Program-made: the position numbers and the translations under genes | Part shown: positions 4,877 to 51,417 of the stretch, in pieces | Numbering within the stretch: the stretch's first letter is position 1 | Layout of the letters: the number at the start of each line of letters is the position of its first letter | Virus record (IMG/VR): IMGVR_UViG_3300032180_000008 | Span: 1-51,417 of that record | Direction: 5' to 3' (one strand) | Length of the DNA stretch: 51,417 bases | DNA from: a virus | Notes under the pieces: generated by a model | Told to the model about the DNA's origin: nothing | Seen by the model: only the letters and a program-made list of their open reading frames with translations | Database searches by the model: none

Positions 4877-5303
4877 ACGGGGAGAGTGTACGACGCTTGA
4901 GGCGGGGGGCCAATCACCGGCGTCACCGAGAGGGGCAAGTCGGGTCTGTCCCCCTCCCGGTGGCGGTTTGCCCCGGCGTGTTGCTCTCTGTTCGGGGCTT
5001 CGGCTCTACGGTGAGTGACCGTACCCTCTGGGCGGTACGAAGCCCTGACCGGACCACTGCCCGACTGCCGGTCTTTGCCGAGTGTCACCGCTTCGTCGCT
5101 CTGCCCCTCGTTGGCAATCCAAAATCGGTGACGTGAGGGTCCCCACGCGAACCCATCCCTGACCGGAACCTCTCGCTGAGGGTTGGTTGCGTGGGCACCT
5201 CAGCTACCCATCCCGGACCTCGCCGACACCTTGACCCAGCATCAAGCGCATCGGGTTGAGCGCCAACCCCATCCGCTCTCTGCCGGAGGTACGCACGTCA
5301 CCG
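4877..5303 (-). other. Non-coding stretch between packaging operon and tRNA
   Basis: No convincing gene in 427 bases. A 71-codon leftward frame (4873-5088) ends in an ATGA overlap with the coiled-coil gene, but its composition is not protein-like. The stretch should contain the packaging-operon promoter, though I see no clear -35/-10 pair and no ACAAGGTAA box. It holds the hairpin at 5143-5194 and a smaller one (GGTT/AACC arms) near 5250. A packaging (cos/pac) site next to the small terminase is plausible here but not shown. Confidence 0.5.
5143..5194 (-). repeat. Long imperfect hairpin downstream of the tRNA
   Basis: Arms at 5143-5160 and 5179-5194 pair over about 16 positions with small bulges (CCACGC closing pairs, AACC/GGTT inside). 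It lies 110 bases downstream of the tRNA on its strand, so it may end the tRNA transcript or be a structured leader of the packaging operon. Confidence 0.5.
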
Positions 5304-5377
5304 TTGCCCCGGCCGGATTTGAACCGACAAGCTTTGGCTTATGAGGCCAACGAGCTACCAGATTGCTCCACGGGACG
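5304..5377 (-). tRNA. tRNA-Met (CAU), initiator-like
   Basis: 74 bases without encoded CCA. Acceptor arm 5377-5371 pairs with 5311-5305 over six pairs while the first pair is a C-A mismatch, the hallmark of bacterial initiator tRNA. D-stem is GAGC/GCTC, giving the R11-Y24 pair also typical of initiators. Anticodon stem TTGGC/GCCAA closes the loop CTCATAA with anticodon CAT. T-loop TTCAAAT is normal. The anticodon stem lacks the full three G-C pairs of canonical initiators (29-31 are GGC). Folding was done by eye. Confidence 0.88.
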
Positions 5378-10269: not shown

Positions 10270-10330
10270 CTCCCTTCGGTAGCGTTTACCTTGTGCGCCA
10301 AGGATACGCCTGACCGGGCTGGCCCGTCAA
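10270..10330 (-). promoter_or_regulatory. ACAAGGTAA-leader promoter 1
   Basis: On the minus strand: TTGACG (10325-10330), 18 bases, TATCCT (10301-10306), 6 bases, ACAAGGTAA (10286-10294), then ACGCTACC and GAAGGGAG before the ATG at 10264. The predicted transcript start is at or next to the box. Confidence 0.8.
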
Positions 10331-32383: not shown

Positions 32384-32426
32384 CACTCTTGCGCGGTGTC
32401 CGGCTGGGTGCCAAGAGGCCGTATGA
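32373..32426 (+). CDS. 17-residue frame with duplicated tail
   Basis: ATG at 32373 overlaps the stop of the previous gene and encodes SGSTLARCPAGCQEAV, whose last ten residues match the end of the 31579-31971 protein. Probably a by-product of the 32-bp duplication, but it could serve for translation coupling to the next gene (ATGA overlap at 32423). Confidence 0.25.
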   Translation: MSGSTLARCPAGCQEAV

Positions 32427-32428
32427 CC
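32397..32428. repeat. 32-bp direct repeat, copy 2
   Basis: 31 of 32 bases identical to 31942-31973. It supplies the ATG of the HNH gene at 32423. Confidence 0.8.
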
Positions 32429-33142
32429 ACCCAAGCTCGCAGTCGCATCATGCGCCTCGCTGAACGTGACGGCTCGTTGTGCCACTACTGCGAGACACCG
32501 CTGGACGTGGTGAACGTACCTCGTGTCCTCGCCAAGCCGCCGAACAGTCCTACCTCTGACCATGTCATTCCTCGTTCGGCCGGAGGATGTGACGCTCTCG
32601 GTAACCTCGTGCTGGCCTGCCGACTCTGCAACAACCGTCGGGCGTCGAAGCCCTACGCCGACTACCTCCGGCAGATAGGGCTGGCACCGCGGCCCGACGT
32701 CCTGAACCGGGCCAACCAAGCCAATGCGAACGCCAGAAAGGAACGGGCTCGGGTTCCCAACCCAAGGGCTTACCCTCGCCTGACGGCTGCGCAAGCCCGG
32801 GAAGAGACACACCGAGCGACTGAGGCGGCGATGCTGCGAGGCATCCCAGCCCGCACGTTGCCACCGCCGACGCCGGTGAAGCTGACCCGACCTGGGCTGG
32901 TAGTGGTCGATGTCACCCCGAGCGGAATCCCCATCCTAGGAAGGGACCGGGCGATGAACGACACCCAACAGCGCGTTGAGAACCGGAAGGCCGAATACCG
33001 GGCGATGGGCTTCTTGCTGCGCCCGATGATGGTCGTCGTGGGTCGTGTCGTGTACCCCTCGGGTGTCGATCCGGCCACCCTGGATTTCTACCACCGTGCT
33101 CGGGACGGCATGCTGGATAGACGGGTTGACGAGTCGGCCTGA
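32423..33142 (+). CDS. HNH endonuclease
   Basis: 239 residues from ATG at 32423. Zinc-bearing HNH near the start: SLCHYCETPLD (CxxC), SDHVIPRSAGGCDALGNLVLACRLCNNRR with catalytic DHV/H and N. After residue 110 a basic linker and a separate C-terminal part with PGLVVVDVTPSGIPI and RVENRKAEYRAMGFLLRP. Homing or host-interference endonuclease; the flanking 32-bp repeats suggest recent movement. Confidence 0.82.
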   Translation: MTTQARSRIMRLAERDGSLCHYCETPLDVVNVPRVLAKPPNSPTSDHVIPRSAGGCDALGNLVLACRLCNNRRASKPYADYLRQIGLAPRPDVLNRANQANANARKERARVPNPRAYPRLTAAQAREETHRATEAAMLRGIPARTLPPPTPVKLTRPGLVVVDVTPSGIPILGRDRAMNDTQQRVENRKAEYRAMGFLLRPMMVVVGRVVYPSGVDPATLDFYHRARDGMLDRRVDESA

Positions 33143-34198: not shown

Positions 34199-34371
34199 TC
34201 AGTCTCGGGTGGCTCATCCTCGCCGTGTCGGTGATTGCCACAGCTCTCGGGCTTTGGGCCTTCCACATCACCGAGAGCCGTGGCGGCGACTCGTGCGATC
34301 GGGAGCTTGTGCGGGAGGAGCGGGATCTGTTCGACCGGCTGGCAGTGGGAGCCGAGGAGTGGTTGCCGTGA
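34195..34371 (+). CDS. Small membrane protein
   Basis: 58 residues from GTG at 34195 (GTGA overlap). N-terminal membrane helix (LGWLILAVSVIATALGLWAF), then a charged, acidic cytoplasmic part (ELVREERDLFDRLAVGAEEW). Possibly spanin- or holin-like by size, but nothing specific. Confidence 0.62.
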   Translation: MISLGWLILAVSVIATALGLWAFHITESRGGDSCDRELVREERDLFDRLAVGAEEWLP

Positions 34372-35129
34372 GGGAAGCTGGCCGAACGACGATCCCGGCT
34401 CTCCCTCAGAACCTCATCCTTCTCTGCGAGGTGGGATCTACCGCGCACGGCACCGGATTGCCGGGGCACGAGGATCGCGACGAGATGGGAATCGTGGTGG
34501 AAACACCGTGGGAAGTGTTCGGCCTCGGTCCTGGCTTCGGCACGAAGACCTACCGGACGCAGCCGGAGGGCGTGCCGTCGGGTCCCGGCGATACGGACCG
34601 GACGCTCTACTCCCTCCGTCACTACCTGAGCCTCGCCGCGGCTGGTAACCCCAGCATCCTCGTCTGCCTCTTCGCTCCGGTGCTGCAAGCCACCCCGCTC
34701 GGGCACGACCTACGGGCCTGCGCTCAGATGTTCGTCGGCCGCCACATCGTCCCCCGCTACCGTGGCTACATGCAGGCGCAGGTGGAGAAGCTCGAACGGG
34801 GCTCAGGCCAGCGAGAGGCGCTGATCGAAGCCCACGGATATGACACGAAGTTCGCCATGCACGCTGCTCGGCTGGGGTTCCAAGGGATCGAACTCCTTGT
34901 CACGGGCCAACTGGCGTTGCCGATGGTGGGACCGGCCGGGGACTGGCTACGGGCTGTCCGTCGGGGAGAGGTGACACTCGGCGAGTGGCGCTCTGTGGTC
35001 CGAGACCTTGACGCCAAACTGGCCTCGCTCACTGATGATCCGCGGTATCCCGAAGGCCCGAACCGCAACGGTATCGAGCAGTGGTCGGTGACAGCCCACA
35101 CCGCAACCTGGGCAGGGGAACTCGGCTAG
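34368..35129 (+). CDS. Nucleotidyltransferase (RlaP-like)
   Basis: 253 residues from GTG at 34368 (GTGA overlap). LLCEVGSTAHGTGLPGHEDRDEMGIVVE holds GS and the D..D pair of the pol-beta superfamily, then TLYSLRHYLSLAAAGNPSILVCLFAP, and a helical domain with GYDTKFAMHAARLGFQGIELL. This is the phage-encoded RlaP/YcgL-like class of unknown substrate, thought to modify nucleic acid or proteins. Ends overlapping the convergent gene by 4 bases. Confidence 0.8.
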   Translation: MREAGRTTIPALPQNLILLCEVGSTAHGTGLPGHEDRDEMGIVVETPWEVFGLGPGFGTKTYRTQPEGVPSGPGDTDRTLYSLRHYLSLAAAGNPSILVCLFAPVLQATPLGHDLRACAQMFVGRHIVPRYRGYMQAQVEKLERGSGQREALIEAHGYDTKFAMHAARLGFQGIELLVTGQLALPMVGPAGDWLRAVRRGEVTLGEWRSVVRDLDAKLASLTDDPRYPEGPNRNGIEQWSVTAHTATWAGELG

Positions 35130-38712: not shown

Positions 38713-39543
38713 TTACTGCCCCTCGCCCCGTCCCAGCCAGTCCGACCGCTCGCCCAGACTCTGCGGGCTGCTCCATATCGGGGCGAAGGGACCTACGTCC
38801 CGGATCTGGCCGAGGGTGGTGATGCGGTAGGGCAGCGCCACGCCGTTCCTCCGGGAGTAGGCCGTGATGCGCTCCAGGCGGTCCCGGCTGGCCCGGTCGG
38901 TGTCCTCGTCGGCGGCGTCGACCACGAACAAAAGGAAGGGCCAGCCCTGGGGGAAGCGGTGGGCCCAGAGCCGCGGGTCGTCCCGGACGTCGGCGTACTG
39001 GCGGAGCTTCTCGCCCAGCCTGCCAGGGGAGTAGGTGGCCCGGTCGACCTCCAGGAGGGCGGTGGCGAACGCCGGCCGTCCGTCGGGCAGCATCACGGTG
39101 TAGCGGATCAGCGCATCGGCGATCACCCGGTTTCGTCTCAAGGGGATCTCGTGGTCCCACCCGTGAACCCCGAAGTCGTCCCCACGCTGGCGGGCTGAGC
39201 GCAACAGGGAAATCCCCACTTCGTTCACCGCCCAGGTGTGCCGGGCCAGCCTGAGCCCCTTCGAGCTCGGGGAGAACGGCAGGCGCCCGTCACCGTCCAA
39301 CTCCCTGAGCCCCAACAGGGTGCAGCTCCATACCTTTTTGCCCGAGCGCACCAACTTGCGCCCGGTGATGAGCCCCCGGTGCTCCAGGCGGGAGAGCGGC
39401 TTGCTCACCGCGGCCCCCGACCCAGCCTTGGTGCCGGGGAGGTGCATGACCCGAATCTGCTCGGAGTCCAGGTAGCGGTGCCAGCCGATCGACTGGAGGA
39501 TCGCGGCATCGGTCGCCTGGAGGGGGGTGAGGTCAAGCACCAC
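38713..39543 (-). CDS. Replication-relaxation family protein
   Basis: 276 residues. Winged-helix start (TDAAILQSIGWHRYLDSEQIRVMHLPG, then SRLEHRGLITGRKLVRSGKKVWSCTLLGLREL), then a catalytic-like domain with HEIPLRRNRVIADALIRYTVMLPDGRPAFATALLEVDRATYSPGRLGEKLRQYA, the PD-(D/E)XK-like core with E and D residues of the family. Members act in plasmid DNA relaxation/replication in Gram-positive mobile elements. Supports a plasmid or conjugative character; last gene of the leftward module. Confidence 0.85.
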   Translation of the reverse strand: MVLDLTPLQATDAAILQSIGWHRYLDSEQIRVMHLPGTKAGSGAAVSKPLSRLEHRGLITGRKLVRSGKKVWSCTLLGLRELDGDGRLPFSPSSKGLRLARHTWAVNEVGISLLRSARQRGDDFGVHGWDHEIPLRRNRVIADALIRYTVMLPDGRPAFATALLEVDRATYSPGRLGEKLRQYADVRDDPRLWAHRFPQGWPFLLFVVDAADEDTDRASRDRLERITAYSRRNGVALPYRITTLGQIRDVGPFAPIWSSPQSLGERSDWLGRGEGQ

Positions 39544-39733
39544 GGTGGCCCTTCTTGTCTGCCCGTTCGTGGGCCCGCTCCGAGACGGCTCGGCAGATCA
39601 GCCGAAAGGCACAGTAGGCGTTGAATACCTCTTCCCAGTCCCGGGCGGTCAGGGGGCAGTCGACTAGCCATGTGTGGCCGCAGTCGGGCTTCTGGCGGTA
39701 GCTGCCGAGGCCGGTGTCAGGCATCGCTGACAT
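39533..39733 (-). CDS. Small protein upstream of replication-relaxation
   Basis: 66 residues: KPDCGHTWLVDCPLTARDWEEVFNAYCAFRLICRAV, a Cys/His set with a helix, and a basic tail. Overlaps the replication-relaxation gene by 11 bases. Function unknown. Confidence 0.62.
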   Translation of the reverse strand: MSAMPDTGLGSYRQKPDCGHTWLVDCPLTARDWEEVFNAYCAFRLICRAVSERAHERADKKGHRGA

Positions 39734-40172
39734 CCTTTCTGCCGGCCGCGAGGGCTACCCGGTAGTTGTGCTCGAGCGCTCGATACCCCTTGTAGCTTTC
39801 CCGGTGCCCGCTGACAACTCGCCACATTCCTCCCTGATTTAGCCCCTGATCGCGACAAAACTGTGTCAGGTTGAAAATCTCGATGACTTGTCCAGCGGGG
39901 TCAAGTACCCACACGGTCTTCGCCTCTGACACCGCTATAAGTGCGCGGGTCTCAGCGGACACGGTTACCCCATAGCATGGGTTACGTAGGCCTTGATGGT
40001 CCTGCCTTGCCTGCCGATTCTTGGATCTCATATCGGCCATATTGTCGCTGTGTGTCCCGTCGTGGTAGTCCCCGCTGTTGATGACACCCCAGCAGTACAG
40101 TTCGCCGAACCACTTCTCAGGGTTGGGCCAGTATTCGGCCGTCGGGTTGTGCCCGCCGCAGATGAAGCTCAC
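39717..40172 (-). CDS. Homing-endonuclease-like protein (NUMOD)
   Basis: 151 residues from GTG at 40172 (GTGA overlap). VSFICGGHNPTAEYWPNPEKWFG, then HSDNMADMRSKNRQARQDHQGLRNP and FNLTQFCRDQGLNQGGMWRVVSGHRESYKGYRAL, the NUMOD-type DNA-binding segment of HNH homing endonucleases. No intact HNH catalytic part is visible here, so it could be a specificity-only or decayed protein; the gene above carries an HNH. Confidence 0.65.
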   Translation of the reverse strand: MSFICGGHNPTAEYWPNPEKWFGELYCWGVINSGDYHDGTHSDNMADMRSKNRQARQDHQGLRNPCYGVTVSAETRALIAVSEAKTVWVLDPAGQVIEIFNLTQFCRDQGLNQGGMWRVVSGHRESYKGYRALEHNYRVALAAGRKDVSDA

Positions 40173-40732
40173 AGGTCCACCGCCTCCAGGCTCATTTGCA
40201 ATGCTGGGCGGCGATGAAGGGCTGGCCCGTGACATTCGCAGAGGCACTCGGCCATCACGAAACCTCCGAGGGTCGTCCCGGCTGGCGCTTGCGACCAGCA
40301 CTGGTCATGCAGGCCCGTCCAGCACGCGATGGTCCGGTGAGCCGTTCCGATAGGGCCGCTGCGAACCGAGACGATCTGGAGGCGCGTTACCTCAACGTGG
40401 TGTGAGTGACACAGGGTTTCGAGGTTCCCGAGATGGTTGGCGCAACTCAATCCCCATCGCTGGGCTCCCCGGATAGGCAGGATGTGGTTGACCTCCACCC
40501 TGTCATCGCTCGCACACCGGACACAGACCGACCCATCCCGACGTAGTGCCGCTCTGGCCGCATAGGTCCAGTAGTGGTTGCGGAGGAAGTGGTACTCGCA
40601 CTCCTCGCCGCACCAGGCAGTTTTGCGGCCGGTCAGGGCAGTGCCGCACCACCCGCACATCTTGGGAGTGGCCTTGAAACTGACCTTCTCGCATAGATCC
40701 GTGACGGGCAGGGGAATGGGGATCGGCTTCAT
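40169..40732 (-). CDS. HNH endonuclease
   Basis: 187 residues. CGWCGTALTGRKTAWCGEECEYHF, a first zinc knuckle, then CVRCASDDRVEVNHILPIRGAQRWGLSCANHLGNLETLCHSHHVEVT, an HNH with catalytic NH and zinc Cys/His. The C-terminal part is a His-rich tail (CECHGPALHRRP). Homing endonuclease candidate, sitting between coupling ATPase and replication-relaxation genes. Confidence 0.82.
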   Translation of the reverse strand: MKPIPIPLPVTDLCEKVSFKATPKMCGWCGTALTGRKTAWCGEECEYHFLRNHYWTYAARAALRRDGSVCVRCASDDRVEVNHILPIRGAQRWGLSCANHLGNLETLCHSHHVEVTRLQIVSVRSGPIGTAHRTIACWTGLHDQCWSQAPAGTTLGGFVMAECLCECHGPALHRRPALQMSLEAVDL

Positions 40733-43179
40733 AAATCGGCTACCTGGAGCCCCCCGTCGACCGGGGGATTCTGTCCGACGGGATCTTCGCCGAGTGCCTC
40801 CAGGATGGCATTGTCGAGCCCGTCGAGAGCCGCGACGGTGTCGGTCGCCAGCCGGTAGCGGGGGTCCCCAGCGATGGTGGACTCCAGCGCCCCGGGCTTG
40901 GACGGGTAGAGCTCGCCGGGTTGCAAGGGTCGCACCTGGAACGCGGGGGAGCGCCGGTCCTCATGCACGATCGAGGCGAGGAAGTGGAACCGGGCGGTAT
41001 CCATGATGTCCGCGGCTCCCGCGCCGGACCACTCCTTGGCGATCAGGGAGGCAGCAGCGTAGGAGACGGCCGTGGTGGCGATGGCGGACCCGTTGGTGAA
41101 AATGGCCTCGATGGTCCCGGGCTTGAGCTTGATCGGGGACTGGGAGAGGATCTCGGCCCGCATCCCGTACTTCCCCTGCTCCTGGAGCCCGACGGCGAGG
41201 TCCGGCCCGTCGTACGTCGGGGCCTCGTCATAGATGGTCAGGAACCGCGGGCAGCGGGTGGCCCGAACGTCTGCCGGCGTGTCGGCCCGGGAGGACCCGC
41301 CCATCAGGAGCCCCCGGACGAACAGGGAGGTAGGCAAAGCATCCTGCCCATCCCCCTTCCGGGCATTGCTGAACAGCAGGACCCACCGGGCGTCCATGGC
41401 CTTGCGGAAGTCGAACGTGGAGGGCCCCCCGAGGAACGCCGCGGTGGGGACGTGGGAGCGGAGCCGGTTGATCAGGTTCGTCACGGTGAGGGGAGCGTCC
41501 TTCGGCAGCCGGGGGAAGTCGTCCTCCCACCAAGCCCGGGTGGACCGGGGAAGGTGGCGCATGACAGCCTTCCGCCAAGCCTCGTTGTTGATCAGCGTGG
41601 GGATCTGGAAGAATGTCGGCACCAGTGGGGAACCCACTTCGGCGAGAGCCTGGGCAAGAGCGATCAGGGCCTGCCCGCACGCGACCACGATGGCGGTGGC
41701 GCGCGGAGCAAAGCTGGCGCTCCACTTAGTGGCGGCCTGGAATGCGGACGTGACGGCCCCGAGCGCCGCGTTGGCCTCCTGGGGAGAAGCCCGGCCGGCA
41801 TCGAAGGGGTTCCAGCACGGCAGGTAGAGCCGGGTCCACTGCCGCCCCAGGTCGATGATGAGCCCCCGGCTGGGGAACAGGAAAGCGAAGGGCTCCAGGT
41901 CCCCGATAGCGTCCCCGGCTGGATCCACGAAGGCCCCGCCCAGACCCAGCCCGTACGGAGGGTCCGCGACCCACGACAGGAACCGTGTCATGGCTGCCGA
42001 GCTTTTCCCCCAGCGCGTTTTGCCACACTCTGCCCCGAAGAAGAACTCCTCCCACCGCGTACCGACGGGCTCGGGGTAGCCGTCGACAATCCCGAGCGGC
42101 CGGATACCCGGCCCCAAAGGCAACAGCCCACGCGGTGGCGGGGCGGCAGCGCCGGACCGCCAAAGATCCGCGTGGCCGTTCTTCGCGGTGGGAGGCTTCA
42201 GGAGGCCCAGGATCTCGGTGGCGGAGACCCGGGGGCGCCCACGCGAACCCGGGAAGGTCCCCAGCTCCAATCGGGTGTCGAAACCCTCGCGCACCAGCGG
42301 CCAGTCACTGGTGGGACGGCCGAAAAGAGCGCGGGGCGTGAACCAGTTACCCCCCTGGGGAGAGGCCCACTGCCTCAATGGAGCGCCGGTCACGGCGTCA
42401 ACCAAAAGCCTGGCGCGCTCACGCGTACCAGCTTGGGCCACGGCCAGGCACTGGACATGGAAAAGCGGGGCGGGAGACCCGGGCTTCGCGCCAGAAGCCT
42501 TGCGCACAGGAGCGGTAAGAACAGGTACAGCAGAGCGGGACGCAGGCCCGAGCGGTTGGGAGAGCTGCCGGAAGGCATGGCCCACGTTCACCTTCGCGCG
42601 CGGGGAAGGCTCCTCGCGTTCGGTGAAAACCTCCGCGTGAGCCTGGTGGGATAAAGGCAAGAGGTCGAAGTACACGGCCAGATCCTCGTCAACCTGCACG
42701 GTGGCGAACACACGCGCGAAGCCGGTCAGCGGATCGGGGTCGAGACCAACTGGGGCCAGTAGGTGCCCGTCCGGACGGGCCAGGACCATCTCGCGCCGCA
42801 CGGTGAAGCGAGGCATGTCCCTCTCGGGTTCGGAGGGCTCACGGACCGAAAGCCCTGCGGGCAGGTGGGGGCGGAGCTGCGCCAGCATGTCCGCCGGGGC
42901 CTCGAGCCGGTAGCCGAGCCTCCCGGGAGGGATCGTGACCAGCCCGATCCGGATGGCGTCGGCCGAGCGCGTGGCTATGGGTCCCGTTCGCCGGACGGAG
43001 GCGAATGCGCTGGCGAGGCGCATCAGCTCCTCGCCCGTGGGGTCGAAGGCTCTGGAGGGGATGAGGTCAATCCCCTCCCTGGTCGCTGCGCGCCTGCGGA
43101 TGGCGCTGCGCAGGACCGCGGGGGAGGCGAGTCCCCCGGCAGCGAGAGCGCCCGGAAGGGCGATCAGAGCGGGGATCAT
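40729..43179 (-). CDS. VirD4/TraG-like type IV coupling ATPase
   Basis: 816 residues, ATG at 43179 (ATAA end overlapping the next gene). Hydrophobic N-terminus (3-30), a long unique domain up to about 340, then Walker A GKTRWGKS (386-393), a DPAGDAIGDLE segment, Walker B LTIYDEAPTYDG (647-658), and LSQSPIKLKPGTIEAIFTNGSAIATT, the conserved arm of this family. Coupling proteins feed DNA to the secretion channel; here it would link the relaxosome to VirB4 and VirB6. It is long for VirD4, with an extended N-terminal part. Confidence 0.82.
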   Translation of the reverse strand: MIPALIALPGALAAGGLASPAVLRSAIRRRAATREGIDLIPSRAFDPTGEELMRLASAFASVRRTGPIATRSADAIRIGLVTIPPGRLGYRLEAPADMLAQLRPHLPAGLSVREPSEPERDMPRFTVRREMVLARPDGHLLAPVGLDPDPLTGFARVFATVQVDEDLAVYFDLLPLSHQAHAEVFTEREEPSPRAKVNVGHAFRQLSQPLGPASRSAVPVLTAPVRKASGAKPGSPAPLFHVQCLAVAQAGTRERARLLVDAVTGAPLRQWASPQGGNWFTPRALFGRPTSDWPLVREGFDTRLELGTFPGSRGRPRVSATEILGLLKPPTAKNGHADLWRSGAAAPPPRGLLPLGPGIRPLGIVDGYPEPVGTRWEEFFFGAECGKTRWGKSSAAMTRFLSWVADPPYGLGLGGAFVDPAGDAIGDLEPFAFLFPSRGLIIDLGRQWTRLYLPCWNPFDAGRASPQEANAALGAVTSAFQAATKWSASFAPRATAIVVACGQALIALAQALAEVGSPLVPTFFQIPTLINNEAWRKAVMRHLPRSTRAWWEDDFPRLPKDAPLTVTNLINRLRSHVPTAAFLGGPSTFDFRKAMDARWVLLFSNARKGDGQDALPTSLFVRGLLMGGSSRADTPADVRATRCPRFLTIYDEAPTYDGPDLAVGLQEQGKYGMRAEILSQSPIKLKPGTIEAIFTNGSAIATTAVSYAAASLIAKEWSGAGAADIMDTARFHFLASIVHEDRRSPAFQVRPLQPGELYPSKPGALESTIAGDPRYRLATDTVAALDGLDNAILEALGEDPVGQNPPVDGGLQVADL

Positions 43180-43387
43180 GTTCGCCCCGATTGCGAAACG
43201 CCGACAGGCGGGACGCTGTGAAGTACCGAAAATCCAGCGTAGCTGGAGATGAGGGGTCGCACCTTCACTGGGCTGGGCTCCTAGCTGGGAAAACTGGGCT
43301 CATGAGGGAATCCTAATATAGCCTAATACTCGCTGGCAACTTGTCTACAAATCGCCAAAGCGATAAGGGGATTCCAGCCAGTCACTT
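43180..43387. other. Regulatory interval with palindrome
   Basis: 208 bases without a gene. Contains TTGTCTACAA at 43341-43350; on the minus strand TTGTAG with TATTAG 16 bases on makes a candidate promoter for the coupling-protein gene, and TTGCCA/TATTAG is an alternative. No ACAAGGTAA box. Confidence 0.5.
43341..43350. promoter_or_regulatory. TTGTNNACAA palindrome, copy 3
   Basis: TTGTCTACAA, identical over 15 bases (CAACTTGTCTACAAA) to the copy at 6082-6091. Overlaps the predicted -35 of the conjugation-module promoter, a repressor-type position. Confidence 0.5.
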
Positions 43388-43750
43388 TCACGGCTTGAGC
43401 TCCGCCGGCATCGCAAACAATGGAGTGACCCACGGGAGACCAGCCCCGCGCTGGAACAGAACAGCACCGATGGCGTCTCTACCAGCCCTGTGTTCCTCCA
43501 TAGATCGTCCGGTGGTCAGAACATCGTCAACGATCAGGAGAGGGCCAGAGGTTACGTAGGGAGCGAGGGCATCGGCGATCCACCGGCCACCGCTGGGCAC
43601 GCCCTCCACGCTACCGAAGGCTGGGAGTACCTCCGACAGCATCAGGGCAAGCGTCTCAATGTCTTCGGAGGTGAGCCCGTCACAGTCGATTTTCCACGCT
43701 GAGAAGCCGCTACTGTGGAGCCTGAAACCTCCTTGGATGAAGATGCTCAC
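43388..43750 (-). CDS. Phosphoribosyltransferase-like protein
   Basis: 120 residues from GTG at 43750 (GTGA overlap). LLIVDDVLTTGRSME is a textbook PRPP-binding motif of ComF/type I phosphoribosyltransferases. It lacks the long hood domain and the flexible loop, so may be a minimal ComF-like protein. ComF relatives work in DNA uptake, which may be why it is in a T4SS cluster; the role is inferred. Confidence 0.7.
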   Translation of the reverse strand: MSIFIQGGFRLHSSGFSAWKIDCDGLTSEDIETLALMLSEVLPAFGSVEGVPSGGRWIADALAPYVTSGPLLIVDDVLTTGRSMEEHRAGRDAIGAVLFQRGAGLPWVTPLFAMPAELKP

Positions 43751-44343
43751 GGCGTCACCCCCTGAGCCTTCACGGCCTCGTAGATGGGCACCAGCGTAGA
43801 TCCCGGGGCTCCCCCGAAGGATTGGTAATGGCACTCGCACCACGGACTCTCTCCCAGGGCAGTGATCTGCACCAGCGGGTCCGACCCGAAGCTGGCTACC
43901 ACCCCGGCGTACTGCCTCGTCCCCAGGAGTTGAGCAATCGCCGCGGCACCATCGGCAGGAGTGGGGTACGTCGCCCAGTCCCGGCCGGCGAGGCTCATGC
44001 AGGGTCCCCCGGTGCAGGCGATGAACAGGAAGTTGTTCGCTGGCTGTCCCGGGTTGCCCCCGTTCTCCTGGTGGAACCAGGCCCGACAGACGTTCAGGTC
44101 GATCCCCGGGGAGCGAAGCTGGGCGGTCAGAATCACCAGATCCTGACACCCGCTCTCCTGGGTACTCGACAGCATCCCCGTGGCCGGAGCCGTGATGTCC
44201 ACCGTGGCCGTGGGTGTCACCTGAGCCGATACCGGTGCATCCGGGACGGTCCCGAAGCTGGCGAAGAACAGCGCCACGCCGAACAGCGCCGTAGCGCTGA
44301 GCCCGGCGGCGGCGGCGAAGATCAGCTTCACGCTGGCACCCAT
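43747..44343 (-). CDS. Secreted lytic-enzyme-like protein
   Basis: 198 residues. Signal/anchor at about 5-27 (KLIFAAAAGLSATALFGVALF), a short linker, then ICRAWFHQENGG-type segment: VCRAWFHQENGGNPGQPANNFLFIACTGG, WATYPTPADGAAAIAQLLGTRQYAG and SPWCECHYQS, matching lysozyme/glucosaminidase-type domains with the E in QEN as possible catalytic residue. Needed to open peptidoglycan for a T4SS channel or for virion entry. Confidence 0.72.
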   Translation of the reverse strand: MGASVKLIFAAAAGLSATALFGVALFFASFGTVPDAPVSAQVTPTATVDITAPATGMLSSTQESGCQDLVILTAQLRSPGIDLNVCRAWFHQENGGNPGQPANNFLFIACTGGPCMSLAGRDWATYPTPADGAAAIAQLLGTRQYAGVVASFGSDPLVQITALGESPWCECHYQSFGGAPGSTLVPIYEAVKAQGVTP

Positions 44344-44669
44344 CGCCCGTTCGTGATGAAGCCGTGGAGACCGCAGCCACCCTTGTCGATGGCGCAGTGA
44401 ATGCTCGGCGAGAGCGTGAGCGGGTCCCAGTTAATGACCTGCCACCGTGGGCTATCCGGCCAGACTTCGGCGATCTCCGGTAGGTCGAAGAGAATCCCGC
44501 CGTCGCATCGCTTACTAGGGTCCCGTGCGTCTGGGTGGTCTAGTTCCAGTCCGCACCACGGGACATCGGCCAGGTGCGCCCACTGAGGATTCAGCGCTAG
44601 GTCTGGCCCCCAGCGGTGCCGGTAGCCGATGACGCCCGAGCCGAAATCAAGCGGGGCGGGATCTGTCAC
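44328..44669 (-). CDS. Hypothetical protein with Cys/His residues
   Basis: 113 residues from GTG at 44669. HRWGPDLALNPQWAHLADVPWCGLELDHPDARDPSKRCDGG then WQVINWDPLTLSPSIHCAIDKGGCGLHGF: several Trp, Cys and His residues, maybe a metal or lectin-like fold. The C-terminal end overlaps the next gene by 16 bases. No family recognised. Confidence 0.58.
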   Translation of the reverse strand: MTDPAPLDFGSGVIGYRHRWGPDLALNPQWAHLADVPWCGLELDHPDARDPSKRCDGGILFDLPEIAEVWPDSPRWQVINWDPLTLSPSIHCAIDKGGCGLHGFITNGRWVPA

Positions 44670-44679
44670 GCCAACTGCC

Positions 44680-46686
44680 TCACGGCTTGGGGTTTCGCCC
44701 GGCTGCCCGGTGGCGGAGTCGCTCCAAGGTCTGCCTGCCGAAGTCCTGGCGGGCCTGCTCCTGAGCGACTCTCTGGGCCTCCATGTCGGCCTCACGCTGG
44801 CGACGGGCTGCGATGTCGGCCAGTCCTGCCCGGATCTTCGTCGCCCTCGCCTGCTGGACCTGGCGGGCCTGAGACTGCTGGAAGGCATCGCCCTCCATGT
44901 AGGACGACAAAGCGCCCTGGGGGATCGCCAGGCGTGCCTCACGAGCGGCTGCGAGGCGGTCCCGGACTTCGGCGACCCGGTTCTGGAGAGGAACGCCTGC
45001 GCCCAGGGCTGCGGTGCCCACGCCCTCGGTCAGTTGCCTGCCGGCGTCCTTCATTCCCCTGGCGAGCCCGGCGACCGGCATGCCCACCCGGATCGCCGTT
45101 CGGGTCGCCAGGTCCTTCACCCGGTCCAGCCGGTCGGGGAACTCCTTCATGACCTTGTAGGTCCCCACCCCGAGCGCCGAGACTCCTGCGAGGTTGCGGA
45201 GCACATGGCCCGGCTTGGGAACCGACGGCCTCCAACCTCCACTTCCCCCCCTTCCCGCTGCGGCCCCGGCAAGTCCTCCTGCGAGAGCGGCACTTCCCCT
45301 GGTTGCGGCGGCGAAGAAGTGCTTCTTGGCGAAGAACGCCCCGACCACCACGGCCGAGACCATGACGGCCTTTTCGGCGGGCGGGTCGTTCTGGGTGATG
45401 CTCAGGCCCTGGGAGAAGAACATCACGAAGACCACCAGGAGGGCAGAGGCGGCCAGGATCGTGAAGGCGGCCTTGCCTGCCCACTGGGTCCACTTCCACG
45501 CGGCCTTGTGGCCGGGGAAGAGGGCCAGGGCGGCGAAGATCGAGAGCGTGGCGACCAGGGCGATCCCGAGGAGCTGGGCTCCCACCACAGCCAAGGCGAC
45601 GATGACGAGGAGGATCATGACGCCGAGGGAGAGGAGGACGAAGAACCAGGCGAACAGCCATCGTCCCCCGTTGCTCGGGTCGGCGTTGATATCGGCGTAC
45701 TTCGCACAGGCAGGGTCGGCCCGCATGGCGTCCCGGGGGGCGTTGTCCGACCCCCACGGCCCTTGGCTCAGGATGGCGTCCCGGATCACAGCGCAGTTTC
45801 CCGTCAGAGGCTGGCCCCAGTCCAGCTCGTCGTAGGGCTTGTCCACCAGGGCGGTACTGATCGCCCGGCGGAGGGGAGACAGGGAAGCCTGAAACTCCGG
45901 GTGGTCGAACTGGTTGGAGGGAGCAGGGATGGTCTGGCCCGCCTGGTTGTCGGTCGAGGCTTGCAGGATTGAGCCAGAGACATCGCTCGTGAGTCCGAGC
46001 GCTCCCCGGAAGTACCCGGCTGGGTTGGCCATGATGATGCCGAAGATGGCCCAGATGACCAGCGTGGCCGCGACTTCCCCCCCTGCTCTCGACCATCGGC
46101 CCTTGAACAACTGCCAGCCGCAGTAGAGGGCCAGCACCGCCATGGCAATGTGGCCGAAGCCGAACGGACCGATCAGGTGTGTGGTGAACAGCCGGGAGGT
46201 CTCGGCGGCCGGGGCGGCGAACTTGCTGGCGAAGGTGAAACTGAACGCCCAGGTGACGGCGAAGAGGCCGAAGCGGATGAACAGCATATTGACCGTCCAC
46301 GCCACGGTCATGAGCGTCCCGAAGAAGTGCCGGGACACGTCCGTTCCGCTGCCGGGATCGAAACCGAGGTCGTAGTTCTGCAGGGGGAAGCGGGTCCCCA
46401 CGTCCCCCGGCACCATCTCGCCAGCGAGGTCCACGGGTTGATGCCGAGGGGTGTACTCGGGATGGTGCTGTCGGCACTGCTGGAGGTTGACGAACCGGAT
46501 CGCCGCGTCCGCCTGGCTCTCGCCACCTTCGGGCGGGGCCACGTACTTCGCACACGGGTCCGGCTGTAGGAGGCTCGACACAGCGGGCGTGACGGTGTTC
46601 GTCGGGGTTGGAGGGGTCTGCGCCCACGCGGGAGCACCGATCAGCATGGCCCCCGCCGCCAGGAGCCCGGCAGCCGCCAGTCTCAC
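44680..46686 (-). CDS. VirB6/TrbL-like T4SS membrane protein
   Basis: 668 residues from GTG at 46686 (GTGA overlap); the upstream extension is noise. Signal peptide (RLAAAGLLAAGAMLIGAPAWAQ), an outer linker, then groups of membrane helices (TLMTVAWTVNMLFIRFGLFAV, GHIAMAVLALYCGWQLF, VMILLVIVALAVVGAQLLGIA, FTILAASALLVVFVMFF, SAVVVGAF) and a long basic, helical C-terminal tail (about 545-668, Arg/Gln/Ala-rich). Fits the TrbL/VirB6-like core channel protein of Gram-positive T4SS. The tail may dock to cytosolic ATPases. Confidence 0.78.
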   Translation of the reverse strand: MRLAAAGLLAAGAMLIGAPAWAQTPPTPTNTVTPAVSSLLQPDPCAKYVAPPEGGESQADAAIRFVNLQQCRQHHPEYTPRHQPVDLAGEMVPGDVGTRFPLQNYDLGFDPGSGTDVSRHFFGTLMTVAWTVNMLFIRFGLFAVTWAFSFTFASKFAAPAAETSRLFTTHLIGPFGFGHIAMAVLALYCGWQLFKGRWSRAGGEVAATLVIWAIFGIIMANPAGYFRGALGLTSDVSGSILQASTDNQAGQTIPAPSNQFDHPEFQASLSPLRRAISTALVDKPYDELDWGQPLTGNCAVIRDAILSQGPWGSDNAPRDAMRADPACAKYADINADPSNGGRWLFAWFFVLLSLGVMILLVIVALAVVGAQLLGIALVATLSIFAALALFPGHKAAWKWTQWAGKAAFTILAASALLVVFVMFFSQGLSITQNDPPAEKAVMVSAVVVGAFFAKKHFFAAATRGSAALAGGLAGAAAGRGGSGGWRPSVPKPGHVLRNLAGVSALGVGTYKVMKEFPDRLDRVKDLATRTAIRVGMPVAGLARGMKDAGRQLTEGVGTAALGAGVPLQNRVAEVRDRLAAAREARLAIPQGALSSYMEGDAFQQSQARQVQQARATKIRAGLADIAARRQREADMEAQRVAQEQARQDFGRQTLERLRHRAAGRNPKP

Positions 46687-47282
46687 AGCCGGTGCCCGAC
46701 CTGTTCGAGCCACGTCAGTGTAGGAGAGAACCCCCACCAGTAGACGAGTCCCCCGAAGACCACGGCAACCCACCAGAACCGAACGAGAGCGACGGCAACG
46801 AGCGTCCGCCGGAGGTAGGGCCAGAACCCCGGCGATGGCCGGTCGTGGCGTAGGAGACTCTCGGTACGGTTCACGGCCTGCGTCGCGGGGACGATCTCGT
46901 ACCACCGCTCCCGGTAGATTCCCCGGGCGGTATCTACGTGGGTGTAGCCGATGTGGTGCCCGACACGCTTGAGCCGGCCATTGCGACTACTGAGTAGGCG
47001 GACCCACCCTGCATAGACGAAACCGAAGACGGCGAAGTCCTGGATGGGCCATGCGAGAAGGATCCTCGCGGAACCGTGGAGCGAGTCGGCGAAGAGCCAG
47101 AAGGCGGCGAGGGGGCCCGCGGTTACCGTCCACCCGATACAGCGCCAGATAATGAAGGCCCGATCCCGTTTGGCGTACCACTCTGGGCTTCGGAGGTAGT
47201 CCGCCATGCTCTGCCGTGAGGCGACCCACGCCTCCCTCCGCACAGCAGCGCGGGCCTCTCGGACACTGGTGAGCCTAAGCAC
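46683..47282 (-). CDS. Membrane protein of the T4SS-like module
   Basis: 199 residues. Three to four membrane helices (about 43-66, 75-95, 160-180, 180-195) with charged loops, e.g. KRDRAFIIWRC and SRNGRLKRVGHHIGY. GTGA overlap with the VirB6-like gene. VirB3/TrbD-like by position and size only; not recognised by sequence. Confidence 0.62.
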   Translation of the reverse strand: MLRLTSVREARAAVRREAWVASRQSMADYLRSPEWYAKRDRAFIIWRCIGWTVTAGPLAAFWLFADSLHGSARILLAWPIQDFAVFGFVYAGWVRLLSSRNGRLKRVGHHIGYTHVDTARGIYRERWYEIVPATQAVNRTESLLRHDRPSPGFWPYLRRTLVAVALVRFWWVAVVFGGLVYWWGFSPTLTWLEQVGHRL

Positions 47283-47294
47283 TGGCGCGTTCTC

Positions 47295-47642
47295 TCATTC
47301 GGGCTGGTTCCTCTCCCGAAACAGCGCCTCAGCCCGCTCGGCTCTCCCCTGTGCCGTCCGCGTGGTGGCGTTGGCTTGCCGGAGACTTGCCGTGAGCGCC
47401 CAACTCTCGGCCACCAAAGTTTTCACCCGTTCCCGCAGCGCCTCGTTCTCCACCTTCAGCGGTGCCTCTAGCCACTCCCGAGCGGCGAGGACAACGACTC
47501 GGGCTTGGGCGTAGTCCATAGGCTGTACATGCCCGCCTACCCACTCTGCGAGGGCCTCCCCGGCGTGCTTCACAGCCAGCACAAGGGCGTCGTCATCCCC
47601 ATCCTCACGCCACGGTTCGACCGGAGGGACGCTCAACGCCAT
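47295..47642 (-). CDS. Coiled-coil protein
   Basis: 115 residues from ATG at 47642; the upstream frame is noise over the surface-protein gene. N-terminal acidic part with WREDGDDDALVLAVKHAGEALAEW, then a coiled coil (APLKVENEALRERVKTLVAESWAL) to the end. Function unknown; small T4SS accessory possible. Confidence 0.64.
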   Translation of the reverse strand: MALSVPPVEPWREDGDDDALVLAVKHAGEALAEWVGGHVQPMDYAQARVVVLAAREWLEAPLKVENEALRERVKTLVAESWALTASLRQANATTRTAQGRAERAEALFRERNQPE

Positions 47643-48496
47643 CCCCAGTGCCAGCGGGCGGCGAGAAAGGCAATGACTATCAGCCCGAGCCCGAGCAGCC
47701 AGAGGAAGGTCAGGTGGAACCCACGGCCGCTCCCGAGCGTGTCGGATGCCCGGCGCGTGGTGGGTGCGGCGTCGAACTCGGGGGCCGTAGGATGAGCGGG
47801 TGAAACCGACGGCTGCGGAGACGGTGACGATGGCGGAGGCGTTCCGATGGCCACCACTGGCGTACCAGCGGGCGATGGGGGCTGCGGTGACGGGACTGGG
47901 GGTGGTGACGCCGTCGCTGGGGCGGTCGCTGCAGGCGCTGGCCGAGGCGGAGCTACGGGAGTACCGGAAATGGCTGGCTTCGCTGCCACCACTCTCGCTG
48001 GTACCGGGGCCACAGGAGCCGCCGCGCTCGCTACAGGACTCGGCGGAGCGGGCGGCAGCTCGCTGGCGAAGGTCACGTCGATCGTCGGCGTGCCGGTAGC
48101 TCCCTGGGGAAGCGGGCAGGTCACTTCGATCCGCCACGTCACGGGTGCCGTCATGTTCAGCGACCAGACGTAGGGAGGCGGAGCACCCGCACCGATGTGC
48201 TGCGAGTCCTGCTCGACCCCGTTGCGGTAGCGAGTCGTGGAGCAGGACGGGCCCGCCCAATTGGGGTCCCAGACATGCACCCAGGGCGTCACGTAGACCC
48301 ACAAGGGCCCGGTGTGGCCGTAGTCCTCGGCGGTGCCTGCGGTGATGACGTCGGCGCTCTGCTGAGTCGGCGTGGGAGAGATCGACATGCCCCAGGTGTA
48401 ACCGCCGTCGTTCGCTCGGGCAGCGGTGCCAGTCAGGACCAGAGCGGCAAGTAGCGCCAGCGTCCAGAGGATTCTGGCAAGCCTCGAAATCGTCAC
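47633..48496 (-). CDS. Cell-surface protein with Pro-rich stalk
   Basis: 287 residues: signal peptide (about 1-28, ALLAALVLTGTAARA), a beta-rich extracellular domain (about 30-140) with two cysteine pairs (PSCSTTRY, IEVTCPLP), a 120-residue Pro/Ala stalk, and a C-terminal membrane helix (FLWLLGLGLIVIAFLAARWHW). It follows VirB4 and could be the pilus-like or mating-contact protein, or a surface anchor. The last 10 bases overlap the coiled-coil gene. Confidence 0.72.
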   Translation of the reverse strand: MTISRLARILWTLALLAALVLTGTAARANDGGYTWGMSISPTPTQQSADVITAGTAEDYGHTGPLWVYVTPWVHVWDPNWAGPSCSTTRYRNGVEQDSQHIGAGAPPPYVWSLNMTAPVTWRIEVTCPLPQGATGTPTIDVTFASELPPAPPSPVASAAAPVAPVPARVVAAKPAISGTPVAPPRPAPAATAPATASPPPVPSPQPPSPAGTPVVAIGTPPPSSPSPQPSVSPAHPTAPEFDAAPTTRRASDTLGSGRGFHLTFLWLLGLGLIVIAFLAARWHWGWR

Positions 48497-51417
48497 GCGG
48501 GAACCTCCTCAAGTTGGCGCATCCGGGCGGGATTGGTTTCGTAGGCGATGGCGTGCTTGCCTTGGGGGGGCCGGACCCAGACGAGGCCGACTCTCCCGAG
48601 GGTGTCCCGGAGCAGGCACAGGGCAGGAGCGGGGGGGGCGGAGAGATCCAGGTCCCGGCGACGCATCTTCTCTTCCAGGAGGATCCGCAGATCGTCCGTG
48701 GGTTCCAGGCCGAGCAGGACTGCGGCTTCGTTGCCGGCGTTGCGGGCTTGACCGAAGAGGAAGCGGTACTCGAACTGGGCTGCGAGCTCGGGAGGCACAT
48801 CCCCCGGGTGCTGGGTGAGGATCCACACCGCGGCGTTCTCCTTGCGGCCCTTGCGGACCCCACCCTCGATCAACGACCTACCCGGGATGGTCGCCGTGTA
48901 GGTGTGGGCCTCGTCCAGGATCGCCACGGCGAAGCGTTGGGGGTCCAGGAGGGTGAATGCCTGCTGGACGGCCGCCACGGCGTAGAGGATCGCCACCGAG
49001 AAGTGCTGCTCGGGAAGGAGGTTGCGGCTCAGGTCGGGCGAGAGCATCTGCTCACGGGTCGGGAGGCTGAGGCCGGCCGCACCGAAGACCAGGGCGTCGA
49101 TGTTGCGGAGGTCCAGTACCTTCCGGTCCCGGTCGAACACGAGGGCTCCGAGCCACTCCCCGGACTTCGGGCGCCGGGCGAAGGTGTTCAGGTGCCGGAG
49201 GGCCAGGGCGGCTCCCTCCACTTCCCGCCTAGCCATGTCCTCCAGGATCTCCAGGGCGAGCGGCATGGAGGGCTCGGGAGAGTCCGCGGACTGCTCGATG
49301 GCCTCCTTGATCGACGTTCCCTCGTCTCCCCGGGGGTCGCAGCCGGCGATCATGGTGGCGAAGCCCAGGGCATAGCGTCGTCCTGCCCCCGGGTCGTGGG
49401 CGAAGACCCGGAGAGGGTCGATCGAAAGGGTCGGGCTCTCGGTGAGGTCCACGAGGGCCTTGCGCTCCTCCGGGAGATCCTGGACCGCCAGCCACCGTGC
49501 CCACTCCTGCTGGTTGGTCACGTCGATGGCCGTCACCATCCCGGCCTGGTCGATGACCGATGTCGCCAGCAGCTTGCCCGTGATGCTGTTGTGCGTCGGG
49601 ATCATTGAGCGTCCAGCCAGGAATAGGTGGGTCGGCGAGTCCACCACGATGCACTTGACCGGCACCGAGGCCACCGGACGCACATCCACGATGTAGCGGT
49701 ACTGAGAGGTTGACCGGAGTTTGGTAGGAAGCCGATCCACCTTTCGCTGAAGCCGGAACGCGGGCAGGGTGGTGGAGAAGTGAATGGCGTACTTTGGCCC
49801 GCAGTCCACCCCATTGAGCCGGGCTGTCCCCTTGATCAGGCTCGCTCGAACGCCGAGACTCCAAATAAGTTCACGAACATTCTCAGCAAGCCCGTAGTGG
49901 ACACTCACGAACTCGCATTGTCCGAGAACGGTCACATGGCCATCCGTGTCCATGAGTCCCTGTAGCAGAGCGAGGCGCTGGGCGAAGCTGGCCCGGAGGT
50001 ACTGGGGGGGGATGTGCTTGTTGCCGAGAAGCCCGAGCGATGTGAGGTGATCTCGGAAGCTTGGAACAGACATCTTGGTGGGTGCTGGAACGAACTGGAC
50101 ACCATTGCGACGTTGTTGACCCTCCCGTTGGCAGACTCTGCACAATGTCACCCCGCGACCACCATTTGGGTTGGTCCAGGTATAGGTTGATTCCTCGGTC
50201 CGAAGGTGGCCACCAGAACAATGCGAGCGCTCAGCACCACGCTGTACCGGGTCGATACGATAGAAACCAACCCTGGAAGCGGCCTTCTCAAGAGGGCGAA
50301 CGCGGTATCCAGCTGCCCGGATCTCATCGATTACCTGCACATCAGCATCGGCTGTCGTGATAGTCGTGTCTTTGGATGTCCCATCCCCGAGCCAAGCCCC
50401 CAAGACGTAGGGGTCGATGGGCAATGGGATCTCCGGGAGGTCGAGCGGCTGACATAGCCGAACAGCATGATTCGTTCCGCCATCCGCCCGACGAAGAGTC
50501 GCTTTGATCTCCCCAGTCGTCACGGTCGATGGTTTGGGCGGAGCAACCCGGCTCGCTCCTAGCCGCGCTATGGCAGCACGAACCGCGGCACCGTTGCGGT
50601 AACCAAGTTGCTCAGCGATCTCTCTAAAGGGCACTCCTGCGTCTCGGAGTGCAGACGCTTCCGTTGCTCTCGCAACCGTCTCTACTCGAACATAGCGCCG
50701 TGGGCGGCCGGTCCGGGCTCTAGCCTCACCTCGCGAGACAGAAGATCGATAAGCCGCGAGTTCCGTGTTCCATAGATGGCCCTCGTCGGCGACAATCACA
50801 CTGCCGTCGTCAAACACAACTTCATAGCAGGGTCGGTTCGGCTGCACTTGGCTTGTCGCTGTCACCCGAGTCGGCCGTCCATGTTCGTCCAGCACTTCAT
50901 CGCCCACTTGGATCTCCCCCATCGTGGTCCACCCGTCGGGCGTCGGGATGGGTGTGTCGAGCGCCAGAGCCTTGCCCTCGCCCGGCGCTCCGACGAAGAG
51001 GGCACTGCCTGAGCGCCCGATGCGCTGGGCCTCGGCCGGGTTGATGAGCACCAGGCGGGTGTGCCTGGCGGTGGCCGAGTACCCGAACAGGGTTCCCGAG
51101 CGGTCGCCGAGGTCGAGGCCCAGGAACAGGCCCAACTTGGAAAGATCCTCCGGGAAGAAGTGCTGGCGGTAGTCGGCCATCAGCATCGCCGCCTGTCTCC
51201 GCAGGGTTCCGGGCAGGCTGGCAGTGAAGAGGGGAAGCTGGCCGCCGGTCGGCCGCTGAAGTCTCCAGTCGATCGGGGCGTAGGCCCGGCGCAGGTCGGC
51301 GGCGCGCTCCTCGGCGTCCTGGGCGGTGGGGCCGTAGACGCAGAAGATCACACATGCCCGGTGCTCCGGGTCGTTCGTGGCGGCCAGGTGGTCCCGGAAC
51401 TCCTGGGTGGCGATGAT
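48493..51417 (-). CDS. virB4: VirB4-type T4SS ATPase split by an intein (N-terminus outside)
   Basis: The frame is open to the right edge, so the start is outside the window. Extein parts: RAADLRRAYAPIDWRL and LFLGLDLGDRSGTLFG, P-loop GAPGEGK immediately before the intein and SITGKLLA right after it; then VAILDEAHTYTA (Walker B), WILTQHPGDVPPELAAQFEYRFLFGQARN (motif of VirB4/TraC ATPases). VirB4 powers assembly of the secretion channel and pilus. The intein (49588-50970) must be removed by splicing to restore the P-loop. Confidence 0.85.
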   Translation of the reverse strand: MIATQEFRDHLAATNDPEHRACVIFCVYGPTAQDAEERAADLRRAYAPIDWRLQRPTGGQLPLFTASLPGTLRRQAAMLMADYRQHFFPEDLSKLGLFLGLDLGDRSGTLFGYSATARHTRLVLINPAEAQRIGRSGSALFVGAPGEGKALALDTPIPTPDGWTTMGEIQVGDEVLDEHGRPTRVTATSQVQPNRPCYEVVFDDGSVIVADEGHLWNTELAAYRSSVSRGEARARTGRPRRYVRVETVARATEASALRDAGVPFREIAEQLGYRNGAAVRAAIARLGASRVAPPKPSTVTTGEIKATLRRADGGTNHAVRLCQPLDLPEIPLPIDPYVLGAWLGDGTSKDTTITTADADVQVIDEIRAAGYRVRPLEKAASRVGFYRIDPVQRGAERSHCSGGHLRTEESTYTWTNPNGGRGVTLCRVCQREGQQRRNGVQFVPAPTKMSVPSFRDHLTSLGLLGNKHIPPQYLRASFAQRLALLQGLMDTDGHVTVLGQCEFVSVHYGLAENVRELIWSLGVRASLIKGTARLNGVDCGPKYAIHFSTTLPAFRLQRKVDRLPTKLRSTSQYRYIVDVRPVASVPVKCIVVDSPTHLFLAGRSMIPTHNSITGKLLATSVIDQAGMVTAIDVTNQQEWARWLAVQDLPEERKALVDLTESPTLSIDPLRVFAHDPGAGRRYALGFATMIAGCDPRGDEGTSIKEAIEQSADSPEPSMPLALEILEDMARREVEGAALALRHLNTFARRPKSGEWLGALVFDRDRKVLDLRNIDALVFGAAGLSLPTREQMLSPDLSRNLLPEQHFSVAILYAVAAVQQAFTLLDPQRFAVAILDEAHTYTATIPGRSLIEGGVRKGRKENAAVWILTQHPGDVPPELAAQFEYRFLFGQARNAGNEAAVLLGLEPTDDLRILLEEKMRRRDLDLSAPPAPALCLLRDTLGRVGLVWVRPPQGKHAIAYETNPARMRQLEEVPA
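49588..50970 (-). mobile_element. Class 3 intein with DOD homing endonuclease
   Basis: 461 residues, from Ala1 (ALALDTPIPTPDGWTTMGEI) to the C-terminal HN (LAGRSMIPTHN) before extein Ser. Ala instead of Cys/Ser at position 1, Trp in VADEGHLWNTE (block B), Cys440 in VPVKCIVVDSP (block F) and Thr before HN (block G) form the WCT set of class 3 inteins. Endonuclease blocks: LGAWLGDG (block C) and GLMDTDGH (block E), both Asp present. Inside it are a helix-turn-helix (FREIAEQLGYRNGAAVRAAI, 115-134) and a Cys/His ribbon (HCSGGHLR...CRVC, 250-280). It sits at the GK|S bond of the P-loop. Confidence 0.9.

Follow-up and report, generated by a model that had tools for sequence, protein, structure and literature searches.

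The interrupted ATPase gene and its insert

The window, by which the whole stretch of DNA analysed is meant (51,417 nt, IMG/VR virus record IMGVR_UViG_3300032180_000008), carries at 48493-51417 a minus-strand open reading frame of 974 open codons that runs off the record at its right end, and codons 150-610 of this frame make up an in-frame insert of 461 aa. The insert separates the Walker A lysine from the serine in a VirB4/TcpF-like AAA_10 ATPase, and the interrupted gene comprises the following parts.

50971-51417 (-): N-extein of the VirB4-like ATPase, 149 aa recorded, ending with Walker A GAPGEGK and running off the record end
49588-50970 (-): class 3 intein (Hint splicing domain and DOD/LAGLIDADG homing endonuclease), 461 aa
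48493-49587 (-): C-extein of the VirB4-like ATPase, 364 aa and stop, beginning at the Walker A Ser
50968-50970 (-): Ala1, with no N-terminal Cys or Ser, as in class 3
50770-50778 (-): block B, H65-L66-W67, with the His of the triad and the WCT Trp
50548-50685 (-): three-helix region, intein residues 96-141, mostly pLDDT ~78-92
50380-50403 (-): endonuclease motif 1, LGAWLGDG (residues 190-197; D196)
50131-50220 (-): Cys/His cluster C251-x3-H255...C277-x2-C280, pLDDT ~42
49939-49968 (-): endonuclease motif 2, LLQGLMDTDG (residues 335-344; D341, D343)
49651-49653 (-): block F, Cys440 (branch-forming nucleophile, WCT set)
49588-49596 (-): block G, T459-H460-N461 (WCT Thr, penultimate His, terminal Asn)

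The junctions read GAPGEGK↓ALALDTP on the N-terminal side and MIPTHN↓SITGK on the C-terminal side (the arrow marks the bond) or, at greater length, LFVGAPGEGK↓ALALDTPIPTPDGWTTMGEI and DSPTHLFLAGRSMIPTHN↓SITGKLLA, and the +1 nucleophile is a serine, the Walker A Ser of the C-extein. In an alignment of class 3-type inteins, consisting of the window intein and 40 others found in this analysis, H65, W67, C440, T459, H460 and N461 are invariant (41 of 41 rows) and A1 is present in 37 of the 41. The top PDB sequence matches are the solved class 3 DnaB inteins of M. chimaera and M. smegmatis, 6rix (E=3e-35) and 6bs8 (4.5e-31), both with the two ends of the splicing domain aligned; in particular, the class 3 catalytic triad of MchDnaB1, C124/H65/T143 (PMC7664689), aligns with C440/H65/T459 of the window intein. 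The Pfam model Intein_splicing gave no match in the window's own record, which is a failure of sensitivity and no evidence of absence. Judged from these residues, the insert is a class 3 intein whose catalytic residues are intact. The position 49588-50970 given by an earlier sequence-only reading proved exact in translation and at the junctions, and its description of a class 3 intein in the P-loop of VirB4 is fully borne out by the WCT set, Ala1, the GK↓S bond and the AAA_10 host.

The host protein matches AAA_10 (PF12846) with 95.2 bits against a curated cut-off of 27.5, while the match to TcpF is partial (53.4 bits against a cut-off of 1100) and the N-terminus of the host lies outside the record. 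When the insert is removed in a script, the P-loop aligns without gaps with 10 intein-free homologues; the Walker B region of the C-extein, AILDEAH, is conserved too. By its sequence the host is a VirB4-type ATPase.

Both LAGLIDADG motifs retain their catalytic acids, in agreement with the earlier statement that the DOD endonuclease residues are intact; D341 and D343 are invariant in the intein alignment and D196 is nearly so, and the LAGLIDADG_3 match (22.4 bits) falls just below the cut-off of 22.5. An AlphaFold model of the intein, built from 31 aligned inteins, has a mean pLDDT of 86, most of residues 247-294 falling below 50, and is predicted to contain the Hint splicing fold. In Foldseek comparisons PI-SceI is the best match for the whole model, and the splicing-domain part superposes on 6bs8/6rix with 0.6-0.8 A over ~70 columns. 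The three-helix region appears helix-turn-helix-like in the model and perhaps gives the endonuclease a further contact with DNA, and the Cys/His cluster (residues 251-280), placed with low confidence, is a possible zinc finger. Single-sequence folding of the entire precursor was uninformative (pLDDT 34).

Empty alleles and age of the insertion

The comparison with intein-free alleles that had been proposed as a check revealed empty sites at the same bond in three kin contigs and in bacterial homologues. In IMGVR_UViG_3300043632_000006 (G001), IMGVR_UViG_3300036792_000096 (G406) and IMGVR_UViG_3300010366_000011 (G407) the same ATPase is uninterrupted at the exact bond, which reads GNVGSGK↓T, GVPGSGK↓S and GASGEGK↓S, respectively; likewise, all homologues matched on both sides of the site in 397 Actinomycetota genomes, a sample and no census, are uninterrupted. 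Since homologues are continuous at the same bond, a chance origin of the insert is excluded. The closest empty allele is that of G407, with 73% (N-extein) and 68% (C-extein) aa identity, and both extein matches meet there at a single base of contiguous DNA (4563/4564 of locus L137).

The third-position GC content (GC3) of the intein is 0.63 versus 0.88 in its own exteins (Fisher p ~3e-21), and fourteen other genes of the window range from 0.72 to 0.91. The difference between intein and exteins suggests that the intein is a late arrival in the VirB4 gene; reasons besides recent arrival could also lower its GC3. In two intein trees the window intein falls among inteins of terminases, of FtsK/DnaB and of a VirB4-like gene of an actinobacterial genome (L091), with no well-supported sister. 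A clade uniting it with other VirB4 inteins is not rejected (p-AU 0.31-0.33; 0.31 for the clade with L091 and the intein of a Bifidobacterium longum plasmid, L038) and not supported either, so that one invasion of VirB4 genes by inteins and several are both compatible with the trees.

The phage contigs and the conjugation-type cassette

The interrupted gene lies at one end of a conjugation-type cassette, and phage packaging genes occupy the other end of the window.

1-1478 (-): phage portal protein, truncated where the record ends; 73% identical in G001, 63% in G406
2364-3932 (-): terminase large subunit (TerL), intein-free; 86% identical in G001, 61% in G406
38713-39543 (-): cassette Replic_Relax (PF13814) protein; 80% identical in G407
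40729-43179 (-): cassette 816-aa P-loop protein, coupling-ATPase-like; 70/49/36% identical in G407/G406/G001
44680-46905 (-): cassette VirB6/TrbL-type membrane protein, CD3337/EF1877-like, 71 bits against a curated cut-off of 120
47633-48496 (-): cassette 287-aa protein adjoining VirB4; G407 has a homologue (64% identity) at the corresponding position

The 816-aa protein is homologous to ATP/GTP-binding proteins of Streptomyces plasmids and is without a family match. The cassette (VirB4, VirB6-like, coupling-ATPase-like and Replic_Relax genes) has the same gene order in four contigs from different metagenomes, namely the window (51 kb; cassette at 38713-51417), G001 (99 kb; 80.5-91 kb), G406 (91 kb; 14-26 kb) and G407 (93 kb; 10-21 kb), and all four also encode tailed-phage packaging or structural genes. 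In particular, G001 encodes a major head protein, an adaptor and tail proteins besides the cassette, and G407 has its own, different terminase, portal and tail set together with counterparts of many window genes from the 5-48 kb region. In the window portal and TerL are present, capsid and tail genes are not seen, and the record is cut at the portal gene; neither a relaxase nor an integrase was recognised, only the Replic_Relax protein. Searches of viral contigs with the spliced VirB4, and likewise with the VirB6-like protein, gave no match, and the kin contigs were reached only through TerL, portal and coupling-like protein queries. Neither the coupling-like protein nor the VirB4 of G001 had a match when searched by sequence against the PDB.

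Other features of the window are a tRNA-Met gene (5303-5377, minus strand), an RlaP-family gene (RNA repair polymerase beta-like, 34209-35129) near an HNH endonuclease gene (32396-33142), and a repeated operator-like site (GTTTACCTTGT / ACAAGGTAAAC, with at most 1 mismatch) at 10284, 14696, 21477, 30144, 30250, 33186 and 37214. The operator-like sites occur in both orientations and adjoin a tail of the CCTTCGG type, a possible repressor regulon; the site was not found in G001.

The identity between the window and G001 is uneven, 86% for TerL and 36% for VirB4, and for this reason modules have probably been exchanged between these elements. The same inequality would fit an integrative conjugative element that lies next to the phage and was included at the border of a predicted provirus, a reading of the context and not of the intein, to which the position of the cassette at the window end opposite the packaging genes and the presence of adjacent VirB4/VirB6-like pairs in bacterial genomes also lend themselves. 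This arrangement is nevertheless unlikely, because four contigs pair the cassette, in the same order, with tailed-phage packaging or structural genes and because G407 and the window have many genes in common between 5 and 48 kb. The simpler idea that the VirB4 gene is just bacterial host DNA is weakened by G001, G406 and G407. The window and these three contigs may form a phage-plasmid-like group with a conjugation-type cassette; that such elements move both as virions and by cell contact is conceivable, if rather doubtful.

Splicing, spread and comparison with known inteins

The locus is in all likelihood explained by a mobile, endonuclease-bearing class 3 intein inserted at the Walker A K↓S bond of VirB4, the gene belonging to the conjugation-type cassette of a tailed-phage, possibly phage-plasmid, lineage. 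The intein group favours P-loop K↓S/T bonds, and the present member is most likely a selfish homing intein that invaded the VirB4 gene. By analogy with class 3 biochemistry, Cys440 would attack the N-terminal junction to form a branched thioester, after which the chain would pass to Ser+1, Asn461 would cyclise and the exteins would be joined, with GAPGEGKS restored. Before splicing the Walker A motif is split, and the ATPase, deprived of its nucleotide site, should be inactive. The LAGLIDADG domain would be expected to cut empty VirB4 alleles, whose repair would copy the intein in (homing). The 12 nt preceding the insertion site (GGCGAGGGCAAG) are identical in G407 and the window; around the empty site of G407 39 of 60 nt are identical and 21 differ, so that cleavage of this allele is not assured.

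An insertion that would disable the ATPase until it is spliced out also invites a different reading, in which the intein is retained as a post-translational switch, splicing awaits a redox, metal or other cue, and the transfer ATPase is active only then. Mycobacterial class 3 DnaB inteins are reportedly responsive to oxidants, zinc and reactive chlorine (PMC6195587, PMC7360933, PMC8557812), and the window intein likewise has a Cys nucleophile (C440) as well as the Cys/His cluster. However, the intein is absent from relatives that carry this cassette and is therefore not needed for cassette function, and a regulatory role is disfavoured on the same ground; moreover, the intact endonuclease residues are those expected of a selfish element, and ready splicing was seen in phage TerL inteins assayed elsewhere (PMC5050341). 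The related suggestion of the sequence-only reading, that splicing could turn on DNA transfer, is speculative. A retained switch is accordingly a decidedly improbable explanation, and selfish spread, not regulation, is the simplest reason for the presence of the intein. Still less probable is that the intein is splicing-dead or decaying and the VirB4 gene effectively broken: although a pseudogene is known among class 3 inteins (at least Arth_1007, PMC3196547) and the VirB4-like host of L091 is frameshifted just after its intein, the window intein keeps all splicing and endonuclease residues in an open frame of 461 codons, and its exteins keep Walker A, Walker B and 68-73% identity to G407. The most ambitious combination, a tailed-phage lineage with a working transfer cassette that is mobile by virion and by cell contact and whose motor is activated only by cue-driven splicing, is highly improbable.

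The locus brings the VirB4 motor into the set of P-loop ATPases that class 3 inteins have entered, and it offers related alleles, both empty and occupied, on which homing and splicing can be tested directly. It supports a picture in which mobile elements carry class 3 inteins between unrelated ATPases of packaging, replication, chromosome and DNA transfer, the P-loop K↓S/T bond being the recurring target. The keeping of a conjugation-type cassette by a tailed-phage group would matter more if the cassette is functional.

Insertion at the P-loop Lys/Thr is a classic intein site, and ~70% of inteins are cited in ATP-binding proteins (PMC5050341). Relatives of the window intein at GK↓S/T are found in many terminases, in DnaB, FtsK and ClpB (L057), and further ones in TraD of an IncC plasmid (L039) and in a TraG/VirD4-type protein (L127); the names of the terminase, DnaB, FtsK and ClpB hosts, where no family search was made, follow the record annotation or a reading of the exteins. 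The sequence-only reading, which placed class 3 inteins mostly in phage replicative helicases, was too narrow in this respect: such inteins are no less common in the terminases of phages and the DnaB of bacteria, and FtsK, ClpB and type IV secretion coupling proteins also carry them (PMC5050341). A common intein locus, which would count against its proposal, is what the P-loop in general turns out to be; the site in VirB4 is rarely occupied, and no homologue matched on both sides of it in the 397 Actinomycetota genomes is interrupted. Its statement that no VirB4 case is described holds for the literature searched, as none of the open-licence articles covered describes an intein in VirB4 or TraD, a weak evidence of absence, and apparent links of inteins with VirB4 or conjugation proved to be entries in reference lists; public records, on the other hand, hold VirB4-like cases in B. 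longum plasmids and at L091.

Among the known systems, the mini-inteins MchDnaB1 and MsmDnaB1 (6rix, 6bs8) share with the window intein the WCT set, His65, Ala1 and the THN C-terminus, with 61-64% identity over ~70 N-terminal splicing-domain columns; they reside in DnaB, whereas the window intein resides in VirB4 and has LAGLIDADG, HTH-like and Cys/His inserts. Terminase inteins (TerL1-a, PMC5050341; L001, L002, L006, L007, L050 and pCQ4 L081) share the K↓S/T bond and the LAGLIDADG domain, the terminase loci read here also have the WCT set, and the nearest are 48-50% identical to the window intein; they differ in the host, a packaging motor instead of a VirB4 ATPase. Coupling proteins are interrupted at GK↓T in pKAZ5 TraD (L039, IncC) and in Brachybacterium pCBA3105-1 (L127), neither of which is a VirB4, and in the trees the TraD intein groups with ClpB on a distant branch. 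The same match as that of the pKAZ5 TraD intein (query range and identity) recurs in the enterobacterial plasmids NZ_AP019818, NZ_AP028316, NZ_AP028319 and NZ_AP019688. On actinobacterial plasmids P-loop inteins of this kind occur in the TraG/VirD4-type protein of L127 (1046-4240), an FtsK-like protein (L119), an ATPase (L120, from Miltoncostaea, to which neither Pfam nor NCBIfam assigned a family) and a protein annotated as an AAA family ATPase (L121).

Closer to the present host, an "ATP-binding protein" of B. longum plasmids (WP_131206008.1, L038; also L126) is a VirB4-like AAA_10 protein with an intein at GK↓T; that of L038, 566 aa long and plasmid-borne, is distant, with at most 36% identity to any row of the tree set. 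At locus L091, in genome G289, the GK↓S bond of a VirB4-like ATPase (weak VirB4_CagE and CD1110-family matches, ~21 bits) is split by a class 3 intein, and over 328 columns this intein and that of the window are 51% identical; the frameshift of the L091 host lies ~25 codons past the intein, in the C-extein, and may reflect decay or an assembly error. In the Curtobacterium plasmid D40 (L040) a class 3 intein interrupts a VirB4-like ATPase at IIDPK↓T, downstream of an intact Walker A, and in L030 and L032 the bond in other proteins is DWK↓T; judging by these bonds, the K↓S/T pair may be more important than its location in a P-loop. Because the VirB4-like cases L038, L126, L091 and L040 exist, the VirB4 intein of the window is not unique in the databases; it is a further example of a known insert at a known site, and what is unusual is its host protein and the phage-borne cassette.
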